Source of the DNA: Mesorhizobium sp. SARCC-RB16n
GTDB lineage: Bacteria > Pseudomonadota > Alphaproteobacteria > Rhizobiales > Rhizobiaceae
NCBI RefSeq assembly: GCF_008520305.1
Contig: NZ_ML703270.1
Coordinates: forward strand, 200,001 to 264,000
Length of the DNA: 64,000 nt
Direction: 5' to 3'
The notes below the pieces were generated by a model. It made no database searches, was not told where the DNA came from, and worked only from the letters and a program-made list of their open reading frames with translations. Numbering within the stretch: the first letter of the stretch is position 1; the number at the start of each line of letters is the position of its first letter. Position numbers and translations under genes: made by a program. Shown one piece after another: positions 2,837 to 47,496 of the stretch.

Positions 2837-3628
2837 TTAGCCGACGTCGCTGCGCCTGTATCCGTGGATTGTCATGACCAGTTTTTCCGAGGGGGCCATT
2901 GGCTCCCATTTGCCGGCCCAGCGCGGATCCATGGTCGCTCCTGCCGCCACCCACAGGTCGAAATACGGCTGCATGGGCTTGTTCGGAAAGGCTCCGCCGG
3001 GGGTGTCGGCCGGCGTTATGACGGCCACTTCCTCGCCATCGATGAAGAAGGCAACTCTTTTCCCCGCCTCGTATTGCATGCCGAGGCGATATCGTTTGCC
3101 CGAGAGGTCGCCAGGCTCGATCAATTTGACCCAAACAGTCTTGTGCTGGTTGTCGACGTTCGCCCAGACAGTAATCTGCATCCCTTTGGTGCCGACAATC
3201 TCAAAGTCGACTTCCTCATGGGCTTTGTCGTTGAAAATCCAAAGCGGCGCCGCGATCAGCCCTGGCTTCATCGTGGGAAGCGTTACGTCCACTTCCCATT
3301 TTGCCGATGAGGAAGCGGAGTTGGCGCCGGACATTACCTCTGCGGATGCCTTCTCGCTGACGGTAAGCTGAAGGGCGCCGTCGACGATTTTGACGTTCGC
3401 GGCTTTCCAGTCGTAGCCCCCAAGCTTGGGTTCGCTCCACTGCGACGGCACGAAGGGATTGTTGTATTTCCAAAGTTGCAGCTTGACACCCGACCAGTCG
3501 GGAAGCTTGTCGAGGGCAACGTTCCCGCTTCCCGCCGTGACGCCCTCAGCCAGTGCATGGCCGGCAACCCATTGCATGGCCGTGGAGGCCGCCAGAAGCG
3601 TCAGGAATTGTCTGCGTGTGGAATTCAT
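2837..3628 (-). CDS. exoK: secreted GH16 endoglycanase, ExoK-like
   Basis: A 263-residue glycoside hydrolase family 16 protein, expected to cleave beta-glucan or the exopolysaccharide itself and so set polymer length. The catalytic ExDxE motif is visible as E139-V-D141-F-E143. The N-terminus STRRQFLTLLAA looks like a twin-arginine signal, with cleavage probably after ALA near residue 27. The start is fixed by GGAGG six bases upstream. S. meliloti exoK encodes a glycanase of similar size directly before exoL; here a GT4 gene lies between them. Two TGCA palindromes (3766-3798) lie in the upstream gap. The GH16 call is firm. Orthology with ExoK is likely, but the Tat-type signal differs from PrsDE-secreted ExoK as I know it. 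Confidence 0.85.
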   Translation of the reverse strand: MNSTRRQFLTLLAASTAMQWVAGHALAEGVTAGSGNVALDKLPDWSGVKLQLWKYNNPFVPSQWSEPKLGGYDWKAANVKIVDGALQLTVSEKASAEVMSGANSASSSAKWEVDVTLPTMKPGLIAAPLWIFNDKAHEEVDFEIVGTKGMQITVWANVDNQHKTVWVKLIEPGDLSGKRYRLGMQYEAGKRVAFFIDGEEVAVITPADTPGGAFPNKPMQPYFDLWVAAGATMDPRWAGKWEPMAPSEKLVMTIHGYRRSDVG

Positions 3629-3765
3629 CGCTAGCCTCCATTGGGTCGCCTTGACCTTGTCAGCGGCGACGATGCTAAGCCGGCCGGTCGATGCGGCCTT
3701 GGCCGTTCCAGTGGCATGGGCGCCACTTTGATGATCGAGCCATACGCCAATGATAAGGCGATTTT

Positions 3766-3781
3766 TTGCTGCATTGCATCA
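3766..3781. promoter_or_regulatory. TGCA palindrome upstream of GH16 gene
   Basis: TTGCTGCATTGCATCA is in the 244-bp gap before the GH16 gene, 137 bp from its start. It is the first of a pair. Confidence 0.5.
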
Positions 3782-3785
3782 AAAA

Positions 3786-3798
3786 TATTGCAGTGCAG
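3786..3798. promoter_or_regulatory. TGCA palindrome upstream of GH16 gene, second copy
   Basis: TATTGCAGTGCAG begins about two helical turns after the previous copy, consistent with a tandem operator. Confidence 0.5.
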
Positions 3799-3872
3799 AA
3801 AAAGGCTTTCGTGTCAGGGGATTACCGGCGGGCGGAGGCCAAAAGCAGCGGCTGCAACTCCTGGAGAGGCGC

Positions 3873-5159
3873 TCAAGCCGCGGAGGCTGTTGGGGGTTGG
3901 GTTTGTCCCAGTGTATCTTGCCGGCCAGGTCCAAACTGCAGTGAACCGAGTCGGACGGTTTCAAGTTGCAAGGACTGGGGAGACGCAACATCGAGAGCAG
4001 GATCGAGTTGCGCAGGCTCGCGCACTTTTTCCAATGCGACACGATCGTAAAGCGCATCGAGAAACGCGCCTGCGGCGTCTGCCCCGAACATGGTCTCCGC
4101 AGTCCTGCGGGCATTGCGCCGGAGCGGCGCCATCAAGGCGGGTTGGCCTATATACGGCTTCAATCGTTCGATGGCCAAACTGGCGAGCCGCTCGACCTCA
4201 TCACGGAAATATTCGGCATATTTCGCCTCCCCCCGCGAGTCGTATCCCGGACTCCACCAATCGCCGATGTCGTCGAGCCTCACAGGCAAGGCAATCCCGT
4301 TGACGCCGTCCTCAAGGAATTCCGGCAAGGCGCAGACCTTCGTTCCAAGAACAGGAGTGTGCTCGGACATCGATTCCAGCGCTGAATAGCCGAAAGTGTC
4401 GCCAAACGTGGCGAGGATGCCGAAATGCGAGTTGCGCAGCAATTGTCGCACCGATTGGTTGGGCAACACCCCGTGATGCTGGACGTTTCTCAGCTCGAGC
4501 AGCTTGATATAGGGGTCGAAGAATCCCGGACCTGTCGGATCCGTCCATATATGGCCGCCAACCTGGAGACTTGAGACAATGTTCACCCGGATTGGCAATT
4601 TCTGCTGGATGGCTTTTTCGGCGATCTTGACCGCAACGCATCCGCCCTTGCGGCCAAAGTGGGCGCCGACAAATGTCAGCACCAGTTCCTCGGCGCTGTT
4701 TTCGGACATCGCATCTTGCGTCGCGGGCACCACGATATTCGGGTGCCGGACCAGCAGCTTTTCCGTCAGGAGGCAGACTTCCGGATTGTCGCTGTGCTGG
4801 GCCAGAAAACTTCTGCGGGCAAAATGCGACAGTGCGATGATGCGACGGCAACTTGGGCTGGCAATCCGCGACCGCAGGTAGCGGGCCATCAACCCGCGTT
4901 TGCGAAGGGCAAACTGTCGCGGCAAATGGGATTCAAACGACATGATGTACTTGGAGGAATTGATCGGTATCCGGTTGAAGGCATGCACCATGTCGACAGA
5001 CAAGGCAGGCTCGATCAGCGTCACGCCTTCCAGCTTGGATGAGACCAGATTCAATGGCAGAAATCGCTGTCGCAGGATCGTATGCCTGGATGCTCGCGGC
5101 GTAACGAAGCTGGTCGGATACTTGTCGTCGTAGACGGCAATGCGAAGAGACTTGCCCAT
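3873..5159 (-). CDS. GT4-type glycosyltransferase
   Basis: A retaining GT-B (family 4-like) glycosyltransferase, probably cytosolic and membrane-associated, adding a sugar to the lipid-linked repeat unit. The C-terminal half has the classic nucleotide-sugar region (FGDTFGYSALESMSEHTPVLGTKVCALPEF), with the E..S.. acceptor segment. The chosen ATG at 5159 puts the first beta strand (SLRIAVYDDKYPTS) at the N-terminus (428 aa). Upstream in-frame candidates at 5189 (ATG) and 5204 (TTG) have no better ribosome site. The ~40-residue tail after residue 385 is low-complexity and probably disordered. It is divergent from exoL across a 460-bp control region. No specific exo orthologue was recognised. 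Confidence 0.85.
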   Translation of the reverse strand: MGKSLRIAVYDDKYPTSFVTPRASRHTILRQRFLPLNLVSSKLEGVTLIEPALSVDMVHAFNRIPINSSKYIMSFESHLPRQFALRKRGLMARYLRSRIASPSCRRIIALSHFARRSFLAQHSDNPEVCLLTEKLLVRHPNIVVPATQDAMSENSAEELVLTFVGAHFGRKGGCVAVKIAEKAIQQKLPIRVNIVSSLQVGGHIWTDPTGPGFFDPYIKLLELRNVQHHGVLPNQSVRQLLRNSHFGILATFGDTFGYSALESMSEHTPVLGTKVCALPEFLEDGVNGIALPVRLDDIGDWWSPGYDSRGEAKYAEYFRDEVERLASLAIERLKPYIGQPALMAPLRRNARRTAETMFGADAAGAFLDALYDRVALEKVREPAQLDPALDVASPQSLQLETVRLGSLQFGPGRQDTLGQTQPPTASAA

Positions 5160-5305
5160 ACAGAACCACTCGTCTTCAAGCAGCGGCATCGGGGATATTC
5201 GCAAGCTATTCCAAAGATGCAGAAAAGCACGCTGCCGCGCTGCAACAGCGGATCCCTAGCCAAACTCAAGGCCCAACTTCCCTGACAAGAATTCAACACC
5301 ATTTT

Positions 5306-5324
5306 TTGTTGCAGTGCAATACAA
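5306..5324. promoter_or_regulatory. TGCA palindrome, GT4 side of the divergent region
   Basis: TTGTTGCAGTGCAATACAA: a good dyad, the closest copy to the commonly seen TTGnTGCAnTGCAACAA form. It is about 150 bp from the GT4 start. Confidence 0.55.
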
Positions 5325-5504
5325 TTTTAGCAATTGATTAACTATTGGCTCTGCTGCCGGGTGGGGAGCGATTCGGCCTGATTGTGGTCGTCATGTTGCC
5401 GGCTTTGCAGTGAATGCCCCGATTTCCGGGCGTGGCAGGCCATGTCGCCTCCGATGGCTCGATTGTGTGGCCGCGCCAGCGCTGTCAAAAAATTGGATCA
5501 TATG

Positions 5505-5521
5505 TTTTGTGCAGTGCGGTA
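5505..5521. promoter_or_regulatory. TGCA palindrome upstream of exoL, distal copy
   Basis: TTTTGTGCAGTGCGGTA: a weaker dyad, 50 bp before the next copy (about five turns). Confidence 0.4.
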
Positions 5522-5554
5522 GAGATGCCTAATTTTGCTACGCCGCACCAAAAA

Positions 5555-5570
5555 TGTTGCGATGCAGCAA
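5555..5570. promoter_or_regulatory. TGCA palindrome upstream of exoL, proximal copy
   Basis: TGTTGCGATGCAGCAA lies 50 bp before the exoL start codon and shares its layout with 2761-2775. Confidence 0.5.
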
Positions 5571-5619
5571 GAGCTGTACTAGGCTTCCCTTCGGGTGGGC
5601 CAACAGCGATCGAGTTTTC

Positions 5620-6792
5620 ATGCTGCATGTCTTGTACCTGGTGCACGATGTTTCCGATCCGGCGGTTCGCCGGCGGATCACGATGCTCAGGGCAGGTGGC
5701 GCCCGGGTCACCCTGGCGGGCTTCCGCCGCACCGCGAATCCGATTGCCGACGTTGAAGGATTGCGGCCGATCGACCTTGGCGAGACGCGCGACGGCCGGT
5801 TCGCGCAGCGCCTGGCGGCGGTGGCGAAAACAGCGGTTTCGATAGGTTCGAAGCTCAGGGGCATGCCGAAGCCCGATCTCATTATCGCGCGCAATCTGGA
5901 AATGCTGGCGCTGGCCCGGCGCGCAAGGTCGGCTTTCGGCGCCGCTGTCCCGATCGTCTATGAATGCCTCGACATTCACCGCCTGGTGCTCCGCGACGAT
6001 GTCCTGGGCAAGGCGCTGCGCGCCACCGAGCGCCGTCTGGCGCGGGACGTGAAGCTGCTGGTGACCAGTTCGCCCGCCTTCATAGCCAATTATTTCAAGC
6101 CCTTCCGCCAGGTCGCAGCACCGGTGGAGCTGGTCGAGAACAAGTATTTCGAGGCAGCGGCTGTTCTGCTTGGTGAGCGCGAGGCGGTGGAAGGACCTGT
6201 AGCACCGCCATGGCGGATCGGCTGGTTCGGGGCGCTTCGGTGCCGCCGCTCGCTCGAACTGCTGGCCGGTTTCACACGCTGCATGGAGGGCCGGTTCGAG
6301 ATCGTGCTGCGCGGCCGTCCGGCACTTTCCGAATTCCCGGATTTCCATGCCTTTGTCGATGCCGAGCCTTATCTGTCGTTTCGCGGGCCGTATCGCAATC
6401 CGGAGGACATGGCGGCGATCTATCGGGACGTCCATTTCTCCTGGGCGATCGATTTCTTCGAGGAGGGTCAGAACTCCGAATGGCTGCTGCCCAACCGCCT
6501 TTATGAAGGCTGCCGCTTCGGCGCGGTGCCGATCTCGATGGACAACACCGAGACCGGACGTTTCCTGCGGCAGCGGGATATCGGTGTTTTGTTGCCGCAG
6601 GCCACGCCCGAGGCGCTCGAAACCGCGCTTGGCAGTATGGAACAACACCGCTTCGGCAGGCTGAAGGCGCGGGTGCTGGCGCACAATCCGAGGATGTGGA
6701 GCTACGATCGCAGCGACTGCAGCGCCCTGGTCGAAAAACTGCGCCGCCTGACCACCGTGCGCGAACCCCTCGCGGCCGAAGCCCTGGCATAG
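5620..6792 (+). CDS. exoL: succinoglycan-type glucosyltransferase ExoL
   Basis: A 390-residue GT-B glycosyltransferase. The N-terminus LHVLYLVHDVSDPAVRRRITML with GGARVTLAGFRRT, and the later IIARNLEMLAL and YECLDIHRLVL, match ExoL proteins, which add the third glucose (beta-1,4) to the succinoglycan lipid-linked intermediate on the cytoplasmic face. The ATG at 5620 is chosen over the in-frame ATG at 5554 because it begins right at the first beta strand and the longer form would overlap the palindrome at 5555. It opens a plus-strand run exoL-A-M-O-N-P with tiny gaps, the same order as in S. meliloti. Confidence 0.88.
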   Translation: MLHVLYLVHDVSDPAVRRRITMLRAGGARVTLAGFRRTANPIADVEGLRPIDLGETRDGRFAQRLAAVAKTAVSIGSKLRGMPKPDLIIARNLEMLALARRARSAFGAAVPIVYECLDIHRLVLRDDVLGKALRATERRLARDVKLLVTSSPAFIANYFKPFRQVAAPVELVENKYFEAAAVLLGEREAVEGPVAPPWRIGWFGALRCRRSLELLAGFTRCMEGRFEIVLRGRPALSEFPDFHAFVDAEPYLSFRGPYRNPEDMAAIYRDVHFSWAIDFFEEGQNSEWLLPNRLYEGCRFGAVPISMDNTETGRFLRQRDIGVLLPQATPEALETALGSMEQHRFGRLKARVLAHNPRMWSYDRSDCSALVEKLRRLTTVREPLAAEALA

Positions 6793-6807
6793 GATGGACA
6801 TCGCCCG

Positions 6808-7797
6808 ATGACGCAAGCGCTTTCCTCCAGTCTGATCGTGATCCCCTGCCTTAATGAGGCAACCCATATCGGCGCGCTGCTCGACCACCTCTGCCCGGCC
6901 GCGGAACGGCTTGGCGCGCGGATCGTCGTTGCCGATGGCGGCAGCACCGACGGCACGCTGGCCATCGTCGGCGAGCGTCAGAAGAACGATCCTCGCATCA
7001 TCCTGCTTCACAATGAAAAGCGCATCCAGAGTGCCGCGATCAATCTGGCGGTGGCCAGATTTGGCGAGGGCGCGCAGTATCTGATCCGCATCGATGCCCA
7101 TGGCGGCTATCCCGACGACTATTGCGACCGGCTGGTCGAGGAGGCGCTGGCCACCGGCGCGGATTCGGTCGTGGTTTCGATGTTGACCAGCGGCAGCGGC
7201 ACCGTGCAGAAAGCGGCGGCGGCGGCGCAGAACTCCAAACTCGGCACCGGCGGCTCGAAGCATCGCCACCTCTCCGCCGGGGAGTGGGTCGACCACGGCC
7301 ACCACGCACTTATGCGGATATCGGCCTTCCAGGCCGTCGGCGGCTATGACGAGACGTTCAGCCACAACGAGGATGCGGAACTCGACTATCGGCTGAGGCA
7401 GGCCGGCTACAGGATCTGGATGAGCGGCCGGACGCAGATGGTCTACTATCCACGGACCTCGCTGCGCGGCCTCTATTTCCAGTATCTTGGCTATGGCCGT
7501 GGCCGGGCCAAGAATGTGCTGAAACATCGGGTGATTCCAAAGGTTCGGCAGATGGTGCCCCTGGCGGTCTTCCCGGTGGTTCTGCTGGCGGCCTTCTCCT
7601 TCGTGCACTGGATTGCGGCGCTGCCGTTGTTGCTGTGGATTGCGGTGTGCCTGGGCTATGGCCTGGTCACGGCCATCAGCCAGCGCAATGCCGATATCGC
7701 GCTTGCCGGCGTCTCGGCGATGGTGATGCATTTCGGCTGGTCCGTCGGCTTCTGGCTGCAGCTTCTCGGCCTCGGCACGTGGCGGAGGACGGCGTGA
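6808..7797 (+). CDS. exoA: succinoglycan glucosyltransferase ExoA (GT2)
   Basis: A 329-residue inverting family 2 glycosyltransferase. In S. meliloti, ExoA adds the second sugar (beta-1,3-glucose) to galactosyl-PP-lipid. Visible are the GT-A nucleotide site (VVADGGSTDGT near residue 45), the RIDAH metal-binding region near 93, a GGYDETFSHNEDAELDYRL acceptor region near 190, and two or three membrane spans in the last 90 residues that anchor it at the inner membrane. The start is 15 bp after exoL and the stop overlaps the exoM start, so translation is probably coupled. Confidence 0.9.
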   Translation: MTQALSSSLIVIPCLNEATHIGALLDHLCPAAERLGARIVVADGGSTDGTLAIVGERQKNDPRIILLHNEKRIQSAAINLAVARFGEGAQYLIRIDAHGGYPDDYCDRLVEEALATGADSVVVSMLTSGSGTVQKAAAAAQNSKLGTGGSKHRHLSAGEWVDHGHHALMRISAFQAVGGYDETFSHNEDAELDYRLRQAGYRIWMSGRTQMVYYPRTSLRGLYFQYLGYGRGRAKNVLKHRVIPKVRQMVPLAVFPVVLLAAFSFVHWIAALPLLLWIAVCLGYGLVTAISQRNADIALAGVSAMVMHFGWSVGFWLQLLGLGTWRRTA

Positions 7798-40325: not shown

Positions 40326-40838
40326 CTACTCGCTCTCCCCCTCCAGCGCCGGCACCGCCACGCCCGCCAGCTCCGCCGCGAGCAGCCGCGCCGCGCCCGC
40401 ACGCGCGATGCGCAACATCAGCGCCTTGCGCGTCGCCGCCGCCATGCGGTGCTCCGGCGCGTCGCGCAGGATTTCGGCGCCATAGCCGTCGGAAAGGATG
40501 AAGCCGCACTCGTCCGGAAAAATCTCCGCCGGCACACCGGGATGGGTGGCAAAGAAAAAACGGTCGGAATGCAGCCGATAATCCGGCCATTTGCGGTCGA
40601 CGCGAAAATCCTCGATCGACGATTTGATCTCGATGATCCAGATATCGCCCTGCCGCGTCAGCGCCACGAGATCGGCGCGCCGGCCGGTGGCCAGCGACAG
40701 TTCAGGCAGCACATGCGCGCCCATCTGCATCAACAGCCGTTGCACGCCACGCCGCACCAGCATGGCACGCTCGGACTGGCGGCCGTCGATCAGAGGGTTC
40801 AGGGGAATCGGGGAGATGATTGGCATGGCAGGCATCAT
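40326..40838 (-). CDS. mmcB: MmcB-family DNA repair endonuclease
   Basis: A 170-residue PD-(D/E)xK-fold protein (RRADLVALTRQGDIWIIEIKSSIEDFRVDRKWPDY) of the MmcB family, which contributes to mitomycin C damage tolerance in Caulobacter. The nuclease core D...E-I-K is intact. It is the last core-genome gene before the mobile island; the transposon target duplication begins 30 bp from its start. Confidence 0.88.
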   Translation of the reverse strand: MMPAMPIISPIPLNPLIDGRQSERAMLVRRGVQRLLMQMGAHVLPELSLATGRRADLVALTRQGDIWIIEIKSSIEDFRVDRKWPDYRLHSDRFFFATHPGVPAEIFPDECGFILSDGYGAEILRDAPEHRMAAATRKALMLRIARAGAARLLAAELAGVAVPALEGESE

Positions 40839-40867
40839 GCCAGGTTTTGTTCACGGTTTGAACCTGC

Positions 40868-40875
40868 TTTTAGGC
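40868..40875. repeat. target-site duplication, left (TTTTAGGC)
   Basis: An 8-bp direct repeat identical to 44322-44329 at the outer edge of the inverted repeats, the expected size for IS1595-family insertion. Confidence 0.85.
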
Positions 40876-40992
40876 GGCGATTATATCGTTGACAAACCTA
40901 GATGGAAAATAGGAATATGATCCTCGACAGGCCGGCCACTCCAATTCACGTCTGTGAGTCAATCCGTCGCACCATCTTAACCATTCCTTAAC

Positions 40993-41041
40993 CATATGAT
41001 TCTGTTATTGTTTTCCTCTGTACCGGAGGACGAATCATATG
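40993..41041. promoter_or_regulatory. 10-bp inverted repeat enclosing the methyltransferase ribosome site
   Basis: CATATGATTC at 40993-41002 and GAATCATATG at 41032-41041 are perfectly complementary. The right arm contains the start codon of the methyltransferase gene and the loop contains GGAGG. Each arm holds a GANTC (CcrM) site. Confidence 0.6.
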
Positions 41042-41632
41042 GACGCAACCTACAATCTTAACGGCGGTTTCAAGCCGACGATGAAAAGGTTCGCTGATCT
41101 CGCGGGGCCTGACTATTTCCCGACGCCAGCCTGGGCCACCCACGCCCTCATGGAAAACGAGACGTTCACCGGAGAAATCTGGGAGTGCGCGTGCGGGGAT
41201 GGCGCTATGTCACGGGTGCTGGAGACGAGGGGCAATCCGGTACGCAGTTCGGATTTATTTGATCGCGGGTTCGGACAGTCCGGCATTGACTTCAACACCG
41301 CCAAGACGCCTGCGGATAACATTGTCACTAACCCGCCCTACAACAGCGCGGAAAGCTTTGTGCGTTCTGGCGTGAAACTAGCCCGCAACAAGTTCGCGTT
41401 GCTTCTCAGGCTGGCCTTTTTGGAAGGGGCAAATCGAGCCAATACCATTTTCTCCGAATGCCCGCCGGCCCGCGTGTGGGTTTTCAGTGAACGGATCACA
41501 TTCTACCCAGCCGGAGCGGTGCAAGCCGGTAGCGGAACCACTGCCTACGCGTGGTTTGTCTGGGACAAAACCACCCCATCCAAGACAGAGTTGAAGTGGT
41601 TCCAACCCGGCTACAAGGGGAAGTATCGCTAG
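41039..41632 (+). CDS. DNA adenine methyltransferase-like protein (transposon cargo)
   Basis: 197 residues. Motif I-like ECACGDGAMSRVL (49-61) and catalytic NPPY (98-101, VTNPPYNSAESFV) mark an amino-methyltransferase, probably N6-adenine. It resembles short phage-type methyltransferases and lacks a visible target-recognition domain, so its specificity is unclear. No obvious cognate nuclease is adjacent. The 101-residue winged-helix gene ends head-on 1 bp away. The ribosome site GGAGG lies inside an inverted repeat. Confidence 0.78.
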   Translation: MDATYNLNGGFKPTMKRFADLAGPDYFPTPAWATHALMENETFTGEIWECACGDGAMSRVLETRGNPVRSSDLFDRGFGQSGIDFNTAKTPADNIVTNPPYNSAESFVRSGVKLARNKFALLLRLAFLEGANRANTIFSECPPARVWVFSERITFYPAGAVQAGSGTTAYAWFVWDKTTPSKTELKWFQPGYKGKYR

Positions 41633-41633
41633 T

Positions 41634-41939
41634 TTATATGGCGTTGCGAGCCTGTTGGTGAACCCTGCCGGCGGCAGTTATCCGAAGGCCACCGTCTATT
41701 TGCTCTAAAAAGCCGCGATAGATAAAGTTTCTGCTGGAGCCCTTATGGGACGTAATGTTGCGCACACGCTGCTCCCAAATAGCTTCATTAGGTCTCGACA
41801 CTGAACCCTGATAATCACCTGCCGTGAGAGCAATCCGGTTTGGTATCTCATGAATGAGCGTACCTATGGGCGCTTCACCGTTTGGGCGTCCAACCAAAAT
41901 ATCTTCCACAATCTCTGAAAGCCGCCGTTCTGTTGTCAT
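41634..41939 (-). CDS. winged-helix-like hypothetical protein (transposon cargo)
   Basis: 101 residues. The segment PNEAIWEQRVRNITSHKGSSRNFIYRGFLEQIDGGLRITAAGR has the spacing of the small winged-helix domains found beside nuclease domains in restriction enzymes, but no nuclease part is present. It converges with the methyltransferase gene, leaving a 1-bp gap, which suggests a functional pair (for example, control protein with methyltransferase). The function is not established. Confidence 0.6.
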   Translation of the reverse strand: MTTERRLSEIVEDILVGRPNGEAPIGTLIHEIPNRIALTAGDYQGSVSRPNEAIWEQRVRNITSHKGSSRNFIYRGFLEQIDGGLRITAAGRVHQQARNAI

Positions 41940-42017
41940 GCTCTAACCCTCCCAAAGTAATGGAAGGGGACAATACGGCGCACCGATAAAGAGTCAACAG
42001 ACGCAGCGCTTGACTGA

Positions 42018-42236
42018 TCAGCGTTTTTCTTGCTCGCGCTTACGTCGAACCAGTTCCTTTATCTGCTCGTCGGTGAGCTTCGGCGCGTGGGCGATCTTGT
42101 TGACCACGGCATCGAATGCCGCGTCGGATTCGTCCGTTTCCAGTTCGCGCGCCTTCTCGACAAACTTCTGGTACTGCCGGTCTTTCGCTGACTGGGTTTC
42201 CAGTTCGCGGGCGGCTTTGCGGGACTTGTCAGGCAT
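42018..42236 (-). CDS. small charged helical protein, third gene of the Panacea module
   Basis: 72 residues, almost entirely charged helix (PDKSRKAARELETQSAKDRQYQKFVEKA). The C-terminus has IAHAPKLTDEQIKELV followed by RRKREQEKR. The same C-terminal motif recurs in the tiny gene at 46372. ATG 42236 overlaps the preceding gene by 8 bp, so translation is coupled. The function is unknown; the basic tail may bind DNA or RNA. Confidence 0.65.
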   Translation of the reverse strand: MPDKSRKAARELETQSAKDRQYQKFVEKARELETDESDAAFDAVVNKIAHAPKLTDEQIKELVRRKREQEKR

Positions 42237-42537
42237 TGGCCTCTGGTGCCTCTGGCGCAAAGGCAACGGCGTGAACAGTGACGTCGTTGTCATCGTAGGA
42301 ATATAGAACCCACACCTCTTTCGTCTCAGCTAGATCATTGCCGGCTACGACGAAAAGCAGAAACTTTGTCGGTTCATGCGCGTGACGAGGTAGGCCTTTC
42401 TCTGGCATTCGGCAAATAAGCCACTCAATGCCTTGCCATTGTTCGTCGAAGCGACCGTTAGCAACAGCGTGCGCGTCAACGAAGACCTGCGCACGCTGAT
42501 CGAGTACGACAGTACGGTAGGTCGGCCAAGAAGCCAT
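42229..42537 (-). CDS. putative toxin of a Panacea-type TA module (RelE/ParE-like)
   Basis: 102 residues. FDEQWQGIEWLICRMPEKG followed by the beta-rich TKFLLFVVAGNDLAETKEVWVLYSYDDNDVTVHAVAF fits a RelE/ParE-like fold (terminal VxYSxDDxxVxVxAV strand). It starts 4 bp after the Panacea-domain gene. The partner identity gives most of the support, since Panacea antitoxins pair with many unrelated toxins. No catalytic residues can be assigned by eye. Confidence 0.6.
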   Translation of the reverse strand: MASWPTYRTVVLDQRAQVFVDAHAVANGRFDEQWQGIEWLICRMPEKGLPRHAHEPTKFLLFVVAGNDLAETKEVWVLYSYDDNDVTVHAVAFAPEAPEANA

Positions 42538-42541
42538 GTTG

Positions 42542-43075
42542 TTATGCCGCCACTGCTTCCACTTCGGCAGCCATCGAAGCGGCCCAAGTCTTAACGTCTT
42601 CCGTCACCTCTCCTAGTTCGGAAGCAAGGGTGGCGTAAAGGGGAATTTCTTCACCTTCGGCGGCTGCGTCCCAAATAACGTCGTGCGTCATCTCGCTTAC
42701 AGCATTCGCCGTATAGCCACACACGGCATCCAAAATTGACCGCGCCAGAGCCCGGTCGTCCTCCGAAAGTGTTTCGACGTTCGGATTTGCCAGCGAAATG
42801 TACTTGCGAACATCGTATTGGAATTCGGGTTCCTGGATAAGGATTTTGCCATCATCCTTTAGTTCCCGAAGGGTCGCCAAGATTTGAGCTGGCACTGGTC
42901 CTTTCTTGCGCTTTACGTAAGACTCCCCCGTCACAGACAAACCGTGCATTTTGTATGACAGGACATCTGTGTACCAAAGCGTCTTATTGAGTCGTATCGC
43001 CCCCAGCCTATGGGGGTGATCTCGGCACTCGTGCACAATGAAGTGTACCAGCGCCTTAAATTTTGCGGTCGCCAT
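42542..43075 (-). CDS. Panacea-domain (DUF4065/SocA-like) putative antitoxin
   Basis: 177 residues. The N-terminal ~85 residues match the Panacea pattern: KFKALVHFIVHEC, then IRLNKTLWYTDVLSYKMHGLSVTGESYVKRKKGPVPAQIL. This domain neutralises diverse toxins in experimentally studied pairs and also occurs in the SocA antitoxin of Caulobacter. The C-terminal half is helical. A -35/-10-like pair on the minus strand (TTGCCC, 17 nt, TATATA) lies at about 43130-43160. It is first of three overlapping or abutting genes. Confidence 0.75.
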   Translation of the reverse strand: MATAKFKALVHFIVHECRDHPHRLGAIRLNKTLWYTDVLSYKMHGLSVTGESYVKRKKGPVPAQILATLRELKDDGKILIQEPEFQYDVRKYISLANPNVETLSEDDRALARSILDAVCGYTANAVSEMTHDVIWDAAAEGEEIPLYATLASELGEVTEDVKTWAASMAAEVEAVAA

Positions 43076-43304
43076 GACAACCTCCTGTGATTCTTCGCCC
43101 TCATTTTGAGGGCGAATCCGTTAACGCATATATAGTGGGTGCTTGACAATGGGGCAAGTTTGCACTATGGGCGCCCCCGAGTCTGTAAAGTAGGCGTTTA
43201 CGCAATAAATTCAGCTACTTGCGTTTTCTTCGCCTTTTTTTGTTCTCGACAAGTTCCAGATCCAGTTGCACAGGTTTCCTGCGAAATGAGCGCTTCGCGT
43301 CAAC

Positions 43305-44252
43305 TCACGCCCTATACGTGAGGCGCTTGCCAGCGGCACCCTTCAAAGCAATGAGCGAACGAACGTTATCTTCAACGCCCAAGGCCGAACGGTTCGAATA
43401 GCGGAAGTCGAACTCTGCCAGATAGCGGTGCAGATGGTGTTCAGCGCAATGCTGGTAGACGCCCTTCATGCCGCGCTTGAAGATCGAATAGTAGCCTTCC
43501 ACGGTGTTCGTGTGGATGGTCTTTGCGCCTTCGTAACGGACATACTCATCCTTGGAATGCACTACGGTATCGTGCGAGGCGAACTCGCCGCTTAGATAGC
43601 GATAGCCGCCCCACTCGTCAGTCATCATGGCGGTTTCCTTGGCGATGTTGGCGCGAACGATCGGCATGACGGTCTTCACCTTGGCGCTGTCGATATGGAA
43701 GGAACGGGCAATGCCGCCGCGCTCTACCAAGGTCAAGACAGTGTTCTTGTGAGCGCCACCGCCGCGACGGACTTCGGTGCCGGCAAGGCGACCGATATAC
43801 GTCTCGTCAATTTCAACGGTCTTGCCATTGCCGCCCATAGGCGAAAGCGAGCCAGACGCCATTGCAAGGCGAATGCGGTGAGCCAGAAACCAAGCCGCCT
43901 TGTAGGTGATCTCCAAGGTGCGGTGCAACTGATGGGCGCTGATACCTTTCTTGGACGAACACATGAGGTGAATAGCCTGTAGCCAGGTGGTGAGCGGCAA
44001 ATGGCTTTCTTCCAAGACCGTGCCCATACGAACCGTGAACTGGCCCTTGCAGTCACGACACTTGTAGAGGCCGTGGCGCTCGACGCCGTGCGGGTTTTTC
44101 TTCGAAGGCTTGGTGCGGACGCCTACCAGCTTGTACGGCTTTTCCATCGAACCGCAGTGATGGCAGACCGGACCATACGGCCAAAGCATACCCTCGACAT
44201 GTTCGAAAGCAGCGGCTTCGTCGCGAAAGTGAGGGCGGGAGAGGACGGACAT
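43305..44252 (-). CDS. IS1595-family (ISXO2-like) transposase
   Basis: 315 residues, the full length for the family. An N-terminal zinc ribbon has C30/C33 and C65/C68. The DDE-type core has D149 in VEIDETYIGR, D212 in MTDEWGGYRYL, and N249/E252 in HTNTVEGYYSIFKRGMKG. The final FRYSNR is typical. It starts about 50 bp inside the right inverted repeat and reads toward the cargo. Confidence 0.93.
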   Translation of the reverse strand: MSVLSRPHFRDEAAAFEHVEGMLWPYGPVCHHCGSMEKPYKLVGVRTKPSKKNPHGVERHGLYKCRDCKGQFTVRMGTVLEESHLPLTTWLQAIHLMCSSKKGISAHQLHRTLEITYKAAWFLAHRIRLAMASGSLSPMGGNGKTVEIDETYIGRLAGTEVRRGGGAHKNTVLTLVERGGIARSFHIDSAKVKTVMPIVRANIAKETAMMTDEWGGYRYLSGEFASHDTVVHSKDEYVRYEGAKTIHTNTVEGYYSIFKRGMKGVYQHCAEHHLHRYLAEFDFRYSNRSALGVEDNVRSLIALKGAAGKRLTYRA

Positions 44253-44321
44253 GGCGAAGGTTCCTAAGTTATTGGAATCTTTCTACCTCTCTCGGTTTGG
44301 TTTGTCAACGATATAATCGCC

Positions 44322-44329
44322 TTTTAGGC
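44322..44329. repeat. target-site duplication, right (TTTTAGGC)
   Basis: Identical to 40868-40875. It is immediately followed by a second IRL-like sequence at 44330. Confidence 0.85.
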
Positions 44330-44395
44330 GGCGATTATATGGTTGACAAACCCAAAGTGGGGATATGGTTCTCGACAGGCCGGCGCTCACGAACG
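44330..44395. mobile_element. second IS1595-type left end, homologous to 40876-40950
   Basis: GGCGATTATATGGTTGACAA is followed by a segment sharing TATGGTTCTCGACAGGCCGG with the interior of the first left end (40915-40933, TATGATCCTCGACAGGCCGG). It points rightward into the second cargo block. No matching inverted right end was found before the core genome resumes at ~47490. Confidence 0.7.
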
Positions 44396-44439
44396 ATTAA
44401 GACCTTCCACGTATCTCAAGGCGCCTACAGGGGGCGAGC

Positions 44440-44691
44440 GTGGCCGAAAAGAGTAAAATTGCGGAAGCGGTCATAAAGTATCTTTTGATCGCACAGATGC
44501 TTGGTGCGGGCGCTTTCATTGCCTTTTGGCTAAGGAACGGGAAGGCCACCATCCCAAAGCACGGCGGCGGCTGGCATGTCCTTGATCGGATTCAAGACCC
44601 GTACCTCTATTGGTTTCTACTGATCGCAATTTCATGGGCCGGCGTTGTGCTCCCGCTCTGGTATATCTACCAGGCCCCGCCGAAGCGCTAG
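44440..44691 (+). CDS. small two-span membrane protein (second cargo block)
   Basis: 83 residues starting at GTG 44440 behind GGGGGCGAG. Two spans (IKYLLIAQMLGAGAFIAFWL and YLYWFLLIAISWAGVVLPLWYIY) flank a polar loop. No family was recognised. It is the first gene after the second IS1595-type left end and lies upstream of the beta-family gene. Confidence 0.6.
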   Translation: MAEKSKIAEAVIKYLLIAQMLGAGAFIAFWLRNGKATIPKHGGGWHVLDRIQDPYLYWFLLIAISWAGVVLPLWYIYQAPPKR

Positions 44692-44796
44692 GCGCTACCC
44701 AGCCGTGGGGGGATGGCACTATTTTCGACAGATGATCCGCTATCCTAGATCAATTTCAAATGTTACGTTCCCCAAAATAAATACTTGGGGGATCAA

Positions 44797-45801
44797 ATGC
44801 CATATCGTTATATGCCCGTAGTGCGCACTAAAGCTGGTGAGGCGGATGCGCTTGGGAACTTGTCGCCGCCAGCAAGAGCGCGAGTGTTCCCCATCATAAG
44901 ACTGGGCGGGACAGTTCCGGCTACTTTTTTGCCAAAGATGATTGCCAACGCTGCTGGTTTTCCAATCGCTCTCGACGGTATCCACAACTTTACGGTGACA
45001 GGCAGCGCTGCTGTGTACAACGCCCTGTTCAATGGCCTTGGTGCGGGTGGAGTTCCTGTCATACCAACTTTGTCAGTTCGGGCTCAACCGGCTTACAATA
45101 CAGCAGCGGCAGCATTGGTGGGCACGTATGCTCCAGGTTTCGTTTTGCATGTGCCTTTGGCTGACTTACCGTTCCTCGCAGGATGGGTGGCCGCTGTTCC
45201 CGCATGGAATCCAAACCAAATTGACATTCTTATCGATGTTGCAGGAGTGGCCGAACAAGCGCCAATTCCGTATGCAAACTATGTTGCCCATACCATAAAT
45301 GCATCTTTGGCCGCTGGTCATCCTTGGCGGTCGGTAACCCTTCATTCTTGGAGCGCGCCAAAGGATCACGGTCCTTTGAATCCAGGCCGAAATGATGTCC
45401 CCCGCTTAGACTGGCAGATTTGGCAACTTGTTAGAGCGCTTGTCCCGTTCCAACTCGACTATTCAGATTCGGGACACGTCCATCCCTCGCTTGACGAAGT
45501 GCCCGGATACGCAATGGCCAATGCTACGGTAAGCGTTCGATATACCATCGATGACCAATGGATTATCCACAAAGGCGTCAAGACGAGCGGTGCAAACGGT
45601 ATCGACATGGGGACGCAATATAGAGGCCACGCACAAACCTTGCTGGCAGACCCCGCGTTTGGCGGCCTAGCGATACCTAGTTGGGGTGACGGGCGTATCC
45701 AGCATTACGCTATCACAGCCGGTGGCGCCGGGGGGCGGGGGCAGTGGGCCGCTTTGCTGCTTAACCGCCATATCGCGCACGTCGCCGACAGACTGCCTTA
45801 A
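44797..45801 (+). CDS. beta-family protein (phage T4-type 'beta protein' domain)
   Basis: 334 residues. The N-terminal YRYMPVVRTKAGEADALGNLSPPARARVFPIIRL is the conserved signature of the Beta_protein family (PF14350), seen in phage- and island-encoded genes of unknown function. A central LDYSDSGHVHPS region and the C-terminal GTQYRGHAQTLLADPAFGG are also family-like. ATG 44797 is chosen because GGGGGATC lies just before it. Codon use is visibly lower in GC than the core genes. Its 3' end overlaps the convergent sce7726-family gene by 135 bp. Genes of these two families are often neighbours, suggesting one system. Confidence 0.75.
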   Translation: MPYRYMPVVRTKAGEADALGNLSPPARARVFPIIRLGGTVPATFLPKMIANAAGFPIALDGIHNFTVTGSAAVYNALFNGLGAGGVPVIPTLSVRAQPAYNTAAAALVGTYAPGFVLHVPLADLPFLAGWVAAVPAWNPNQIDILIDVAGVAEQAPIPYANYVAHTINASLAAGHPWRSVTLHSWSAPKDHGPLNPGRNDVPRLDWQIWQLVRALVPFQLDYSDSGHVHPSLDEVPGYAMANATVSVRYTIDDQWIIHKGVKTSGANGIDMGTQYRGHAQTLLADPAFGGLAIPSWGDGRIQHYAITAGGAGGRGQWAALLLNRHIAHVADRLP

Positions 45802-46356
45802 CCACGCGGTTCTCGACTTCAGGGCGCGCCGGACCTCGTCACTCAGGTCCGAAAATGATAGCTCCCCGGCGAGCCTCTGATGGATAGCTTTTGCAGGCTT
45901 ACTTCGCCAGCCATCAGCGAGCCCATGTTCCTCCAGCACAATCAGGGCTTCCTCTTTCCAGAGGAGGCCCGCTATCAGGTCGGGATCTGGCGAGGGATTT
46001 CTGGACCCGCATTTGTCGCACTGTAGAACAACCCCATCGTTGGTTTGTTCTGCGACCATAACGCCCCACCAGCTTGGAATAATGTCGGTTGCCTTGGCTG
46101 CGTGCCGCTGCCCAACGACAAGCGTCACCTGATCGAATACGCGACTATAGATATCCGCCTGTACCCGTAGCCGTTGGAGCGTATCGCTGTCGCTCTTAAG
46201 TTCGAACCCCGATAGCTCGCCATTGATTACGGCAAGGTCGACGCGAACGGAGCCCGACCACACGCCCATCTCTTCAACGATGCGAGTATCTATATCGTCT
46301 CTGTGTAAGGCCTCTAGATGATTTCTCACCGCCAGCCTGACATCCTTATCACGCAT
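45667..46356 (-). CDS. sce7726-family PD-(D/E)xK-like protein
   Basis: 229 residues. RDKDVRLAVRNHL, TRIVEEMGVWSGSVRVDLAVINGELSGFELKSDSDTL and QVTLVVGQRH match the sce7726 family. D40, E52 and K54 form a PD-(D/E)xK-type nuclease motif. A CDKCG pair sits near residue 113. The last ~35 residues, encoded antisense to the beta gene, are proline-rich (GPLPPPPG) and probably a non-conserved extension. It is preceded by a 44-residue gene 15 bp upstream. A nuclease role is inferred from motif only. Confidence 0.75.
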   Translation of the reverse strand: MRDKDVRLAVRNHLEALHRDDIDTRIVEEMGVWSGSVRVDLAVINGELSGFELKSDSDTLQRLRVQADIYSRVFDQVTLVVGQRHAAKATDIIPSWWGVMVAEQTNDGVVLQCDKCGSRNPSPDPDLIAGLLWKEEALIVLEEHGLADGWRSKPAKAIHQRLAGELSFSDLSDEVRRALKSRTAWLRQSVGDVRDMAVKQQSGPLPPPPGATGCDSVMLDTPVTPTRYR

Positions 46357-46371
46357 TTCTTTGATACTCGG

Positions 46372-46506
46372 TCAGGGCTTGGTCTGTTCGCGCTTCTGGT
46401 GCTGCACCAGCTTCTTTATCTGTTCGCTAGTAAGCTTCGGTGCCTTTGCGATTTTCTGCACGACGGCCTCCTCAATCTGCGGCTTCGGCTGCTTGGGTTC
46501 AATCAC
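46372..46506 (-). CDS. 44-residue partner of the sce7726-family gene
   Basis: Starts at GTG 46506 with AGGA six bases upstream. The sequence IEPKQPKPQIEE leads to VVQKIAKAPKLTSEQIKKLV and QHQKREQTKP. This C-terminus matches that of the 72-residue protein at 42018 in the first transposon. The longer frame to 46668 is rejected since it runs through the 15-bp hairpin at 46587-46623. The short distance to the sce7726 gene implies co-transcription. Confidence 0.55.
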   Translation of the reverse strand: MIEPKQPKPQIEEAVVQKIAKAPKLTSEQIKKLVQHQKREQTKP

Positions 46507-46800
46507 AGCATGTCCTGCTTGAGTTTTGAGTGGGTTTCGTAGCGGCCAACCCTTGCGCTGCTTGTTCGTTCCAGCGACTCGTGTATAAGGGCTGTGTGGG
46601 GTTCGTGGCCCCACACAGCCCTTTAACCTCAACCCAGCCCGGTAGGCCAAGAGACGAGGAGGTTGCAAAGAAGATGACGGTCAGAATAGCAGGAGGGGGT
46701 CCACGACCCCTGATGTCCTACTGAAAGCCGCCAGTCGGCTGCTTCGCAGTCAGTATCGACGGCTTCCGTATAGCACCACTAAGCTCTGGGAGCAACAAAA
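46507..46800. promoter_or_regulatory. divergent control region of the second cargo block
   Basis: 294 bp between the sce7726 operon and the HARE-HTH gene. It holds the perfect hairpin at 46587-46623 and a second, shorter stem (CAGTCGGCTGCTTCGCAGTC region, ~46732-46752). No gene was seen. Confidence 0.5.
46587..46623. promoter_or_regulatory. perfect 15-bp inverted repeat
   Basis: AAGGGCTGTGTGGGG at 46587-46601 and its complement at 46609-46623 with a 7-nt loop. It lies between two divergent genes, where a terminator is not expected; an operator or 5'-UTR hairpin is more likely. It lacks a U-tract on the minus-strand side. Confidence 0.6.
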
Positions 46801-47418
46801 ATGTCTGTGGAATCAATGGCCACTGACCCGTACGAGGTTGTGCTTAACGATCTGCGGGCCAAGAAGGCTCAAATAGAACAAGCCATTAGCGCCATCGAAG
46901 CGATCCGGGGCGGAATGCCATCCGGCTCTTATTCGATGGCGGCTTCGGTCGCGCCAACCGGGCAAAATTCGGACATTGATTCGCCCGGAGCCTTCTTGGG
47001 AATGTCTATTGTAGACGCTGCTAAAAAGTTGCTGGCGGCCAAGCGTCAACCGTTGCGGAATCCCGACATTGCAGCCGCGTTCAAGCGTGGCGGCCTTGCA
47101 ATGAACTCAAAGGATGCCGTTAACACGATTGGGTCTGTCCTTACGCGTCGCGCCAATGATGTTGGCGATCTCGTGAAGGTTGATCGCGGCACTTGGGGTC
47201 TAAAAGAATGGTATCCGAACAGGAGTTTCAAGAAGGGCGTTCCGGTCGAGAAGCTAGAGGCGGCTTCCGCAGCCGCATCAGGTGAGGAACCGCTTGGCGA
47301 TACGCGCATGCTTTCCTTGGTTCAGATTGCCAAGATTCAGGCCGCAGGCGTGACTGAGGATGAGCTTAGGGCAATGCCGAAGGCTGATGCTGATGCGTTT
47401 TTGGATTTGCTCGGATGA
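46801..47418 (+). CDS. HARE-HTH-like winged-helix protein (second cargo block)
   Basis: 205 residues. An N-terminal coiled coil (PYEVVLNDLRAKKAQIEQAISAIEAI) is followed by a winged-helix domain resembling HB1/ASXL/restriction-endonuclease HTH: GMSIVDAAKKLLAAKRQPLRNPDIAAAFKRGG to NTIGSVLTRRANDVGDLVKVDRGTWGLKEW. The C-terminal ~60 residues end in a short helical hairpin. HARE-HTH domains occur in restriction and defence-linked proteins. It is divergent from the sce7726 operon. GGGAGC lies seven bases before the ATG. Confidence 0.7.
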   Translation: MSVESMATDPYEVVLNDLRAKKAQIEQAISAIEAIRGGMPSGSYSMAASVAPTGQNSDIDSPGAFLGMSIVDAAKKLLAAKRQPLRNPDIAAAFKRGGLAMNSKDAVNTIGSVLTRRANDVGDLVKVDRGTWGLKEWYPNRSFKKGVPVEKLEAASAAASGEEPLGDTRMLSLVQIAKIQAAGVTEDELRAMPKADADAFLDLLG

Positions 47419-47445
47419 AGACGTCGGGATCATCGACCCGGCTTC

Positions 47446-47474
47446 TTTTGGGCGATTGTATATTTGACAACCCC
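47446..47474. repeat. degenerate third IRL-like sequence at the island's right border
   Basis: TTTT then GGGCGATTGTATATTTGACA and ACCCC resembles the left ends at 40876 and 44330 and has the same orientation. The core genome (deaminase gene) resumes about 23 bp further on. Confidence 0.5.
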
Positions 47475-47496
47475 AACGTTCGGTGGCGAAGAACCA

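Follow-up and report, generated by a model that had tools for sequence, protein, structure and literature searches.

The closest described relatives of the locus considered here are two anti-phage systems. The gop-beta-cII locus of phage P4 is reported to protect Escherichia coli against lambda and P1, with Gop being toxic when beta is missing (PMC9122126). PD-Lambda-2 is likewise reported as an anti-phage system (PMC9519451). The P4 genes follow the order gop (+), beta (+) and cII (-), and in one P4 record cII bears the name sce7726 family protein. Both families also appear among uncharacterised genes in a table of PMC13414232. In the 64,000-nucleotide stretch of Mesorhizobium sp. SARCC-RB16n analysed here (contig NZ_ML703270.1, positions 200,001 to 264,000; the window), an initial annotation had marked a beta gene, an sce7726 gene, a 44-codon open reading frame (ORF), a HARE-HTH gene and a small hydrophobic protein as one uncharacterised defence-type system. 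All of these genes are present where they were placed. The accompanying view that such families have no established role was too strong, given the name in the P4 record and the anti-phage activity reported for gop-beta-cII. The best overall explanation, which we hold with moderate confidence, is a mobile two-gene anti-phage module, composed of beta and sce7726, on a truncated IS1595-family transposon.

Among the genes of the block, the conserved unit consists of beta and sce7726 only, and it corresponds to the beta-cII core of gop-beta-cII. The two genes converge, as had been annotated, and their 3' ends overlap tail to tail:

44797-45801, + strand: beta protein, PD-Lambda-2_C-like (Pfam Beta_protein PF14350, E-value 1.7e-34)
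45667-46356, - strand: sce7726/cII protein, putative PD-(D/E)xK nuclease (NCBIfam NF033832, E 5e-45)
45667-45801: antiparallel 3' overlap of beta and sce7726, 135 base pairs (bp), from the gene coordinates

PADLOC models for PD-Lambda-2_C (E 2.6e-17) and beta (E 1.4e-5) match the window beta protein, and the model cll matches its sce7726 protein (E 5.4e-29). The same models match the wider families, with PD-Lambda-2_C recognising 62 of the 62 sequences in the beta alignment A6, the beta model 50 of these 62, and cll 71 of 71 in the sce7726 alignment A5. Homology of the window pair to beta-cII is thus virtually certain from sequence comparison, by which the pair is a variant of a known defence core that lacks gop. 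The nearest kin of the pair are found at loci L046, L047 and L048, where the overlap, taken from the coordinates, has the identical length of 135 bp; these three were used to judge which neighbouring ORFs are passengers.

Conservation of the pair was assessed in three whole-genome surveys, covering 101 relatives, 385 genomes of the class and 398 genomes of the phylum. Among the relatives, sce7726 matches were found in five; those in G024 and G057 cover the domain, and the other three are partial. Beta was found in exactly G024 and G057. The class survey returned sce7726 in 9 genomes (8 over the cut-off), beta in 11 and both in 6, a co-occurrence with a hypergeometric P of 8.6e-9; the corresponding numbers in the phylum survey were 18 (13 over the cut-off), 12 and 10. 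The neighbourhood association, which the initial annotation had proposed to check, was borne out: beta and sce7726 are adjacent and convergent in 18 of 18 genomes with both families, namely all 16 of the class and phylum surveys together with G024 and G057. Within the 16, the 3' ends overlap in 13 and lie 0 to 7 bp apart in 3. A pattern scan then provided the best 80 of 290 genome loci and the best 80 of 128 viral loci with sce7726, and in each of these sets of best-scoring loci beta was convergent with sce7726 in 77 of 80, a figure biased upwards since the patterns were derived from beta-linked sce7726 proteins. Overlapping 3' ends occurred in 153 of these 160 best-scoring loci (77 genome, 76 viral). 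Six loci lacked beta; four of them (L106, L123, L130, L132) lie at a sequence end, and L090 and L153 have room and hold no beta. The length of the overlap modulo 3 equals 2 in 132 of 154 loci, many of the viral ones appearing to be near-identical copies. Judged from record titles, the genome loci of the scan span at least a dozen phyla, and the pair is found on plasmids, in phage or viral contigs and on transposons.

Several genomes hold unusual members of one family. Genome G401 (L040, L043, L044 and L045) carries one full-length beta gene and a second beta in pieces, with no sce7726 match in the genome; its locus L045 includes a relative of the IS1595-type transposase (35% identity). Longer sce7726-family frames of about 300 amino acids (aa), perhaps a separate subfamily, were seen in G495, G826, G707 and G218 (L206, L208, L209 and L023), which have no beta match.

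The two proteins change at different rates, beta diverging faster: at sce7726 identities of 48-62%, beta identity peaks twice, at 25-30% and at 40-45%. Their trees are also in conflict, the sce7726 data disagreeing with the two beta types as clades (approximately unbiased test, p-AU 0.033 and 0.0205) and the beta data with one sce7726 clade (p-AU 5.1e-5); the tree groups were named after the trees had been inspected, so that this conflict counts as supporting evidence only. Faster divergence and conflicting trees fit a recognition role for beta and prove none.

With regard to sce7726, the D40/E52/K54 motif given in the initial annotation proved to be invariant throughout the 71 aligned sequences, among them that of the window, as are E29 and Q66; further residues invariant throughout alignment A5 include R7, D58 and R62. 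In an alignment that contains P4 cII, E29, D40, E52, K54 and Q66 are kept in 13 of 13 rows. The conserved E, D and ExK residues typical of PD-(D/E)xK nucleases are therefore present in all 71 rows. A comparison of profiles places E29/D40/E52/K54 in register with E46/D56/E70/K72 of MmcB (PF06319, 23 sequences; pairwise E 4.3e-4), which we take to be a member of the PD-(D/E)xK superfamily. Pfam searches with the 71 members returned weak matches only, one of them to HSDR_N_2 (E 0.026). It is most likely that sce7726 encodes a PD-(D/E)xK nuclease and that beta is its partner. That this putative nuclease is also the effector is a proposition we regard as evenly balanced.

The gene upstream of beta varies. 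In the 77 genome loci with the pair, the adjoining gene encodes an HExxH protein in 24, another ORF or none was present in 51, and the sequence ends in 2. At L066, a PD-Lambda-2_B type protein (PADLOC E 6.6e-140) precedes beta next to sce7726; helix-turn-helix (HTH) plus peptidase M78 are found upstream of beta in L077, an FRG domain protein in L091 and a 466-aa XRE-type protein, its family judged by eye, in G024 and G057. Directly upstream of beta in L046, L047 and L048, no comparable gene was seen. We propose that the working unit would be a mobile two-gene module, the gop-beta-cII core without Gop, in which sce7726 may act as a PD-(D/E)xK nuclease effector that cuts nucleic acid. Beta, as the faster-diverging partner, might sense the infection, restrain the effector, or do both, and phage infection would then release the nuclease and thereby block the phage or the cell. 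Other lineages would place an extra partner upstream of beta, such as Gop, a PD-Lambda-2_B type protein or an FRG-domain protein, beside the same core. By analogy with the described systems, an anti-phage role of the pair is probable.

The pair resides on mobile DNA next to the host gene mmcB, which is 95% identical in L046 and 98% identical in L313. The relevant features, read away from mmcB, are:

40326-40838, - strand: mmcB, host gene beside the insertion site (PF06319, E 2.4e-72)
40849-40863: inverted repeat GTTCACGGTTTGAAC, landmark 12 bp from the transposon end
40868-40875: target-site duplication TTTTAGGC, left copy
40876-44321: intact IS1595-family transposon A, 3446 bp, with perfect 23-bp terminal repeats (40876-40898 and 44299-44321) and a perfect 8-bp duplication
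43305-44252, - strand: IS1595-family transposase of A (PF12762, E 5.6e-31)
44322-44329: target-site duplication TTTTAGGC between A and B
44330-44352, + strand: left terminal repeat of truncated transposon B
47451-47473, + strand: terminal repeat in direct orientation, weaker form

Element A combines a DDE_Tnp_IS1595 transposase with inverted terminal repeats and an 8-bp duplication, the marks of the IS1595 family. Copies of the 23-bp repeat lie at 40876 (+), 44299 (-) and 44330 (+), a weaker one lies at 47451 (+), and shuffled sequences gave 0.00 such matches. Transposon B starts 8 bp after A and retains the left end only; its right inverted end is lost, since the repeat at 47451-47473, which probably belongs to an older and decayed neighbour element, has the same orientation as that at 44330 and leaves the block without a right end of its own. 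No transposase was found among the ORFs scanned between these two repeats. The block hence corresponds to the left portion of an IS1595-family transposon that has been truncated, and we have very little doubt that the pair is transposon cargo. The low-GC character of the island genes behind a transposon end, already recognised from the sequence, is confirmed by a guanine-cytosine content of 0.54-0.56 from 41 to 47 kb, compared with mostly 0.60-0.69 around it, and by the repeat starting at 44330.

A complete version of this arrangement is provided by L046 (Mesorhizobium sp. WSM4311), where the pair lies in a 4018-bp element (3628-7645) bounded by both terminal repeats and a perfect duplication TATCACAA; this element further holds a transposase gene and a DUF3800-like gene split over two ORFs. 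B is a truncated copy of the type that is intact in L046, and it is also a mosaic, 44769-46356 matching L046 at 80.5% and 46575-47447 matching another element, L272, at 83%. A related element in L274, whose duplication has one mismatch, carries another beta-sce7726 pair. Its backbone DNA resembles that of L046 (1300 bp at 86% and 548 bp at 88%), whereas the proteins are only 55% (sce7726) and 29% (beta) identical; the pair thus seems to have been exchanged as a cassette.

Element A carries a different cargo, listed below, and the sister elements of other genomes vary further:

41039-41632, + strand: 197-aa ORF with an NPPY motif, cargo of A
42018-42293, - strand: small ORF of a type common to many of these elements (tblastn matches in many terminal-repeat loci)
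42229-42537, - strand: 102-aa putative partner of the Panacea protein, kept beside the Panacea gene in L279 (75% identity)
42542-43075, - strand: SocA/Panacea-domain antitoxin-like protein, cargo of A (PF13274, E 2.9e-13; 89% in L279)

The 197-aa ORF may be methyltransferase-like by its NPPY motif only; no significant Pfam family was assigned, and a 96% identical stretch of 140 aa lies behind the second stacked repeat of L278. The Panacea protein and its 102-aa partner (42229-43075) probably form a toxin-antitoxin pair. When seven cargo proteins of sister elements were compared with PADLOC, three matched. A BstA homologue (L279, 801-1778; E 1.7e-116) lies beside the Panacea pair in an element that sits at the mmcB site and is flanked by a perfect 8-bp duplication, the L276 cargo protein matches HEC-09 (E 1.3e-24) and also NYN, and a DUF3800 protein in L274 corresponds to PDC-M04A (E 2.6e-13). 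Pfam further identified DUF5343 in L270 and Panacea in L267. Another cargo protein, of 481 aa (L273, 1333-2778), matches no Pfam or PADLOC model at the cut-offs applied, and its end appears HEPN-like by eye (RNALSHG).

The presence of the pair on plasmids, phage or viral contigs and transposons would also be expected of a toxin-antitoxin addiction module, in which sce7726 would be a nuclease toxin, beta its antitoxin, stabilisation of the mobile element the function, and phage defence incidental. We consider this unlikely: the genes converge instead of forming an operon of antitoxin and toxin, the gene upstream of beta is of several kinds, and BstA and other defence families are found on some sister elements. 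The register shared with MmcB, a DNA-repair family and the sole profile relative found, might instead suggest a nuclease module for genome maintenance or against plasmids with no role against phages. This seems improbable, as the cargo of sister elements is partly defence-like and both gop-beta-cII and PD-Lambda-2 are reported to be anti-phage systems.

The two-gene module we favour leaves three genes of the block to be explained:

44440-44691, + strand: 83-aa protein with two hydrophobic stretches, passenger (ORF reading)
46372-46506, - strand: 44-aa ORF with a GTG start, its C-terminal part related to the small ORF type of 42018-42293
46801-47418, + strand: HARE-HTH protein, passenger cargo (PF05066, E 3.1e-8)

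The 83-aa ORF was first suspected, from its position, to be an analogue of Gop. A divergent Gop, which would make the window a full gop-beta-cII locus, would share the position and strand of Gop and be small and hydrophobic, as this protein is. It is nevertheless very improbable, and the candidate was rejected: PADLOC assigned none of the ten island ORFs scanned to gop although P4 Gop itself, as positive control, scored E 4.8e-70, no match to the ORF was obtained in L046, L047 or L048, and a relative (28% identity, E 1e-4) adjoins a terminal repeat in the L273 element, which lacks the pair. The 44-aa ORF, viewed in the initial annotation as a helper of the nuclease-like gene, was likewise rejected as specific to the pair, because its C-terminal part represents a small ORF type found in many terminal-repeat loci; in L046 its relative lies in a neighbouring 656-bp element, not beside the pair. 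No HARE-HTH match was found in L046 or L047 (L048 ends 238 bp upstream of sce7726 and is not informative there), and an 85% identical copy is carried by the L272 element, among whose listed ORFs neither beta nor sce7726 appears. Relatives of all three genes therefore occur on IS1595-family elements that lack the pair, which argues against a five-part system, and the three look like unrelated passengers. A five-component system of membrane protein, beta, sce7726, 44-aa peptide and HARE-HTH is hardly credible, even though all five lie between two terminal repeats and the small ORF type adjoins the start of sce7726 in L048 as in the window, given these gaps in the closest relatives and the switch, at about 46.4-46.6 kb, from one matching element to another along B. 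Of the defence module first proposed, what stands is a conserved beta-sce7726 pair, probably for defence, on mobile DNA; a place in it for the remaining three genes is not supported.

A number of observations weigh against the two-gene anti-phage module, in addition to the bias of the pattern scan. Each family also occurs alone: sce7726 over the cut-off without beta in 2 of 8 genomes of the class survey and 3 of 13 of the phylum survey, beta without sce7726 in 5 of 11 and 2 of 12, respectively. Overlapping convergent ends are not rare, three of the eight convergent pairs in a 50-kb stretch of E. coli overlapping, which weakens an argument from the rarity of the overlap. The hhalign probability of the sce7726-MmcB profile match was only 34%, a single MmcB sequence against the sce7726 profile gave only E 0.044, and profile searches with sce7726 and beta returned no usable PDB relative. 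Gop, the toxin of the reported gop-beta-cII, is absent among the island ORFs scanned, and four of the seven cargo proteins of sister elements, as well as the other island ORFs of the window, gave no significant PADLOC match. Finally, the transposase match in L274 covers only residues 1-162 of 315.

The position of these elements follows a pattern of its own. Of 99 genomes examined in the genus, 49 hold the terminal repeat (0 for a reversed control). Sixteen regions from 16 of these 49 genomes, picked mostly for paired or stacked repeats and not at random, were inspected together with the window and L046. The 8-bp duplication proved perfect for 13 of their elements and had one mismatch for 2 more, a count that leaves out the composite of the two L046 elements. 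The same sample contains eight junctions at which exactly 8 bp separate two repeats, and L048 adds a ninth; L267 has both ends and no matching duplication, and L280, L281 and L282 have a single repeat. All 27 loci in which landmark and repeat lie within 60 bp of each other have exactly 12 bp between the two, and these loci represent 22 genomes counted once (the window's and 21 others). Genome G001 has the landmark and no repeat, and the other 25 of the 53 loci lack the landmark, some of them covering the far end only. Since L268 and L270 have perfect duplications away from the landmark, the site preference is strong but not absolute. In both the window and L046, the element proximal to mmcB is intact and the distal one decayed, a layout that insertion of new copies beside mmcB would produce. 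A would accordingly be the younger sister element, which entered at the same fixed point after B and came to lie between it and mmcB. The 12 bp between inverted repeat and transposon end (40864-40875 in the window, and counterparts) mostly vary by genome, and the mmcB side is almost unchanged.

We lean slightly towards the view that, within the genus, this IS1595-family lineage behaves much like a delivery system that brings anti-phage cargo to a specific site. It would use one exact base, 12 bp from the inverted repeat upstream of mmcB, and place new copies between mmcB and older ones by reusing the same 8 bp, giving rise to a time-ordered stack in which defence cassettes such as beta-sce7726 are swapped on a common backbone. 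No description of single-address stacking of such transposons was found in the literature searched, which comprised titles and the openings of abstracts, with subscription papers mostly outside reach. Altogether, the analysis tells the conserved core, beta and cII/sce7726, apart from exchangeable partners across differently named defence systems, and this separation makes the role of cII directly testable. The findings also point to one chromosomal address at which a rhizobial genus may take up cassettes of this kind, and where further uncharacterised defence genes could be sought.

In comparison with known systems, the window shares with gop-beta-cII of P4 the beta and cII/sce7726 homologues, their convergent order and the invariant motif. 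It differs in having no Gop match, in its carrier, which is a transposon as opposed to a phage satellite, and in the 135-bp overlap, which has no counterpart in P4, its beta ending at 1718 and its cII at 1746. The window beta is a homologue of PD-Lambda-2_C (E-value as above), yet no match to components A or B of PD-Lambda-2 was detected among the ten island ORFs scanned. MmcB has its E, D and ExK residues in register with those of sce7726; unlike the latter, it is encoded by a chromosomal DNA-repair gene without beta, and the overall similarity is weak. IS1595-family members with passenger genes were reportedly described by Siguier in 2009, and the elements presented here resemble such transposons in transposase family, terminal repeats, 8-bp duplication and the carriage of cargo. 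They are set apart by their preference for one point beside mmcB, by stacking at exactly 8 bp and by a cargo that is partly of defence type.

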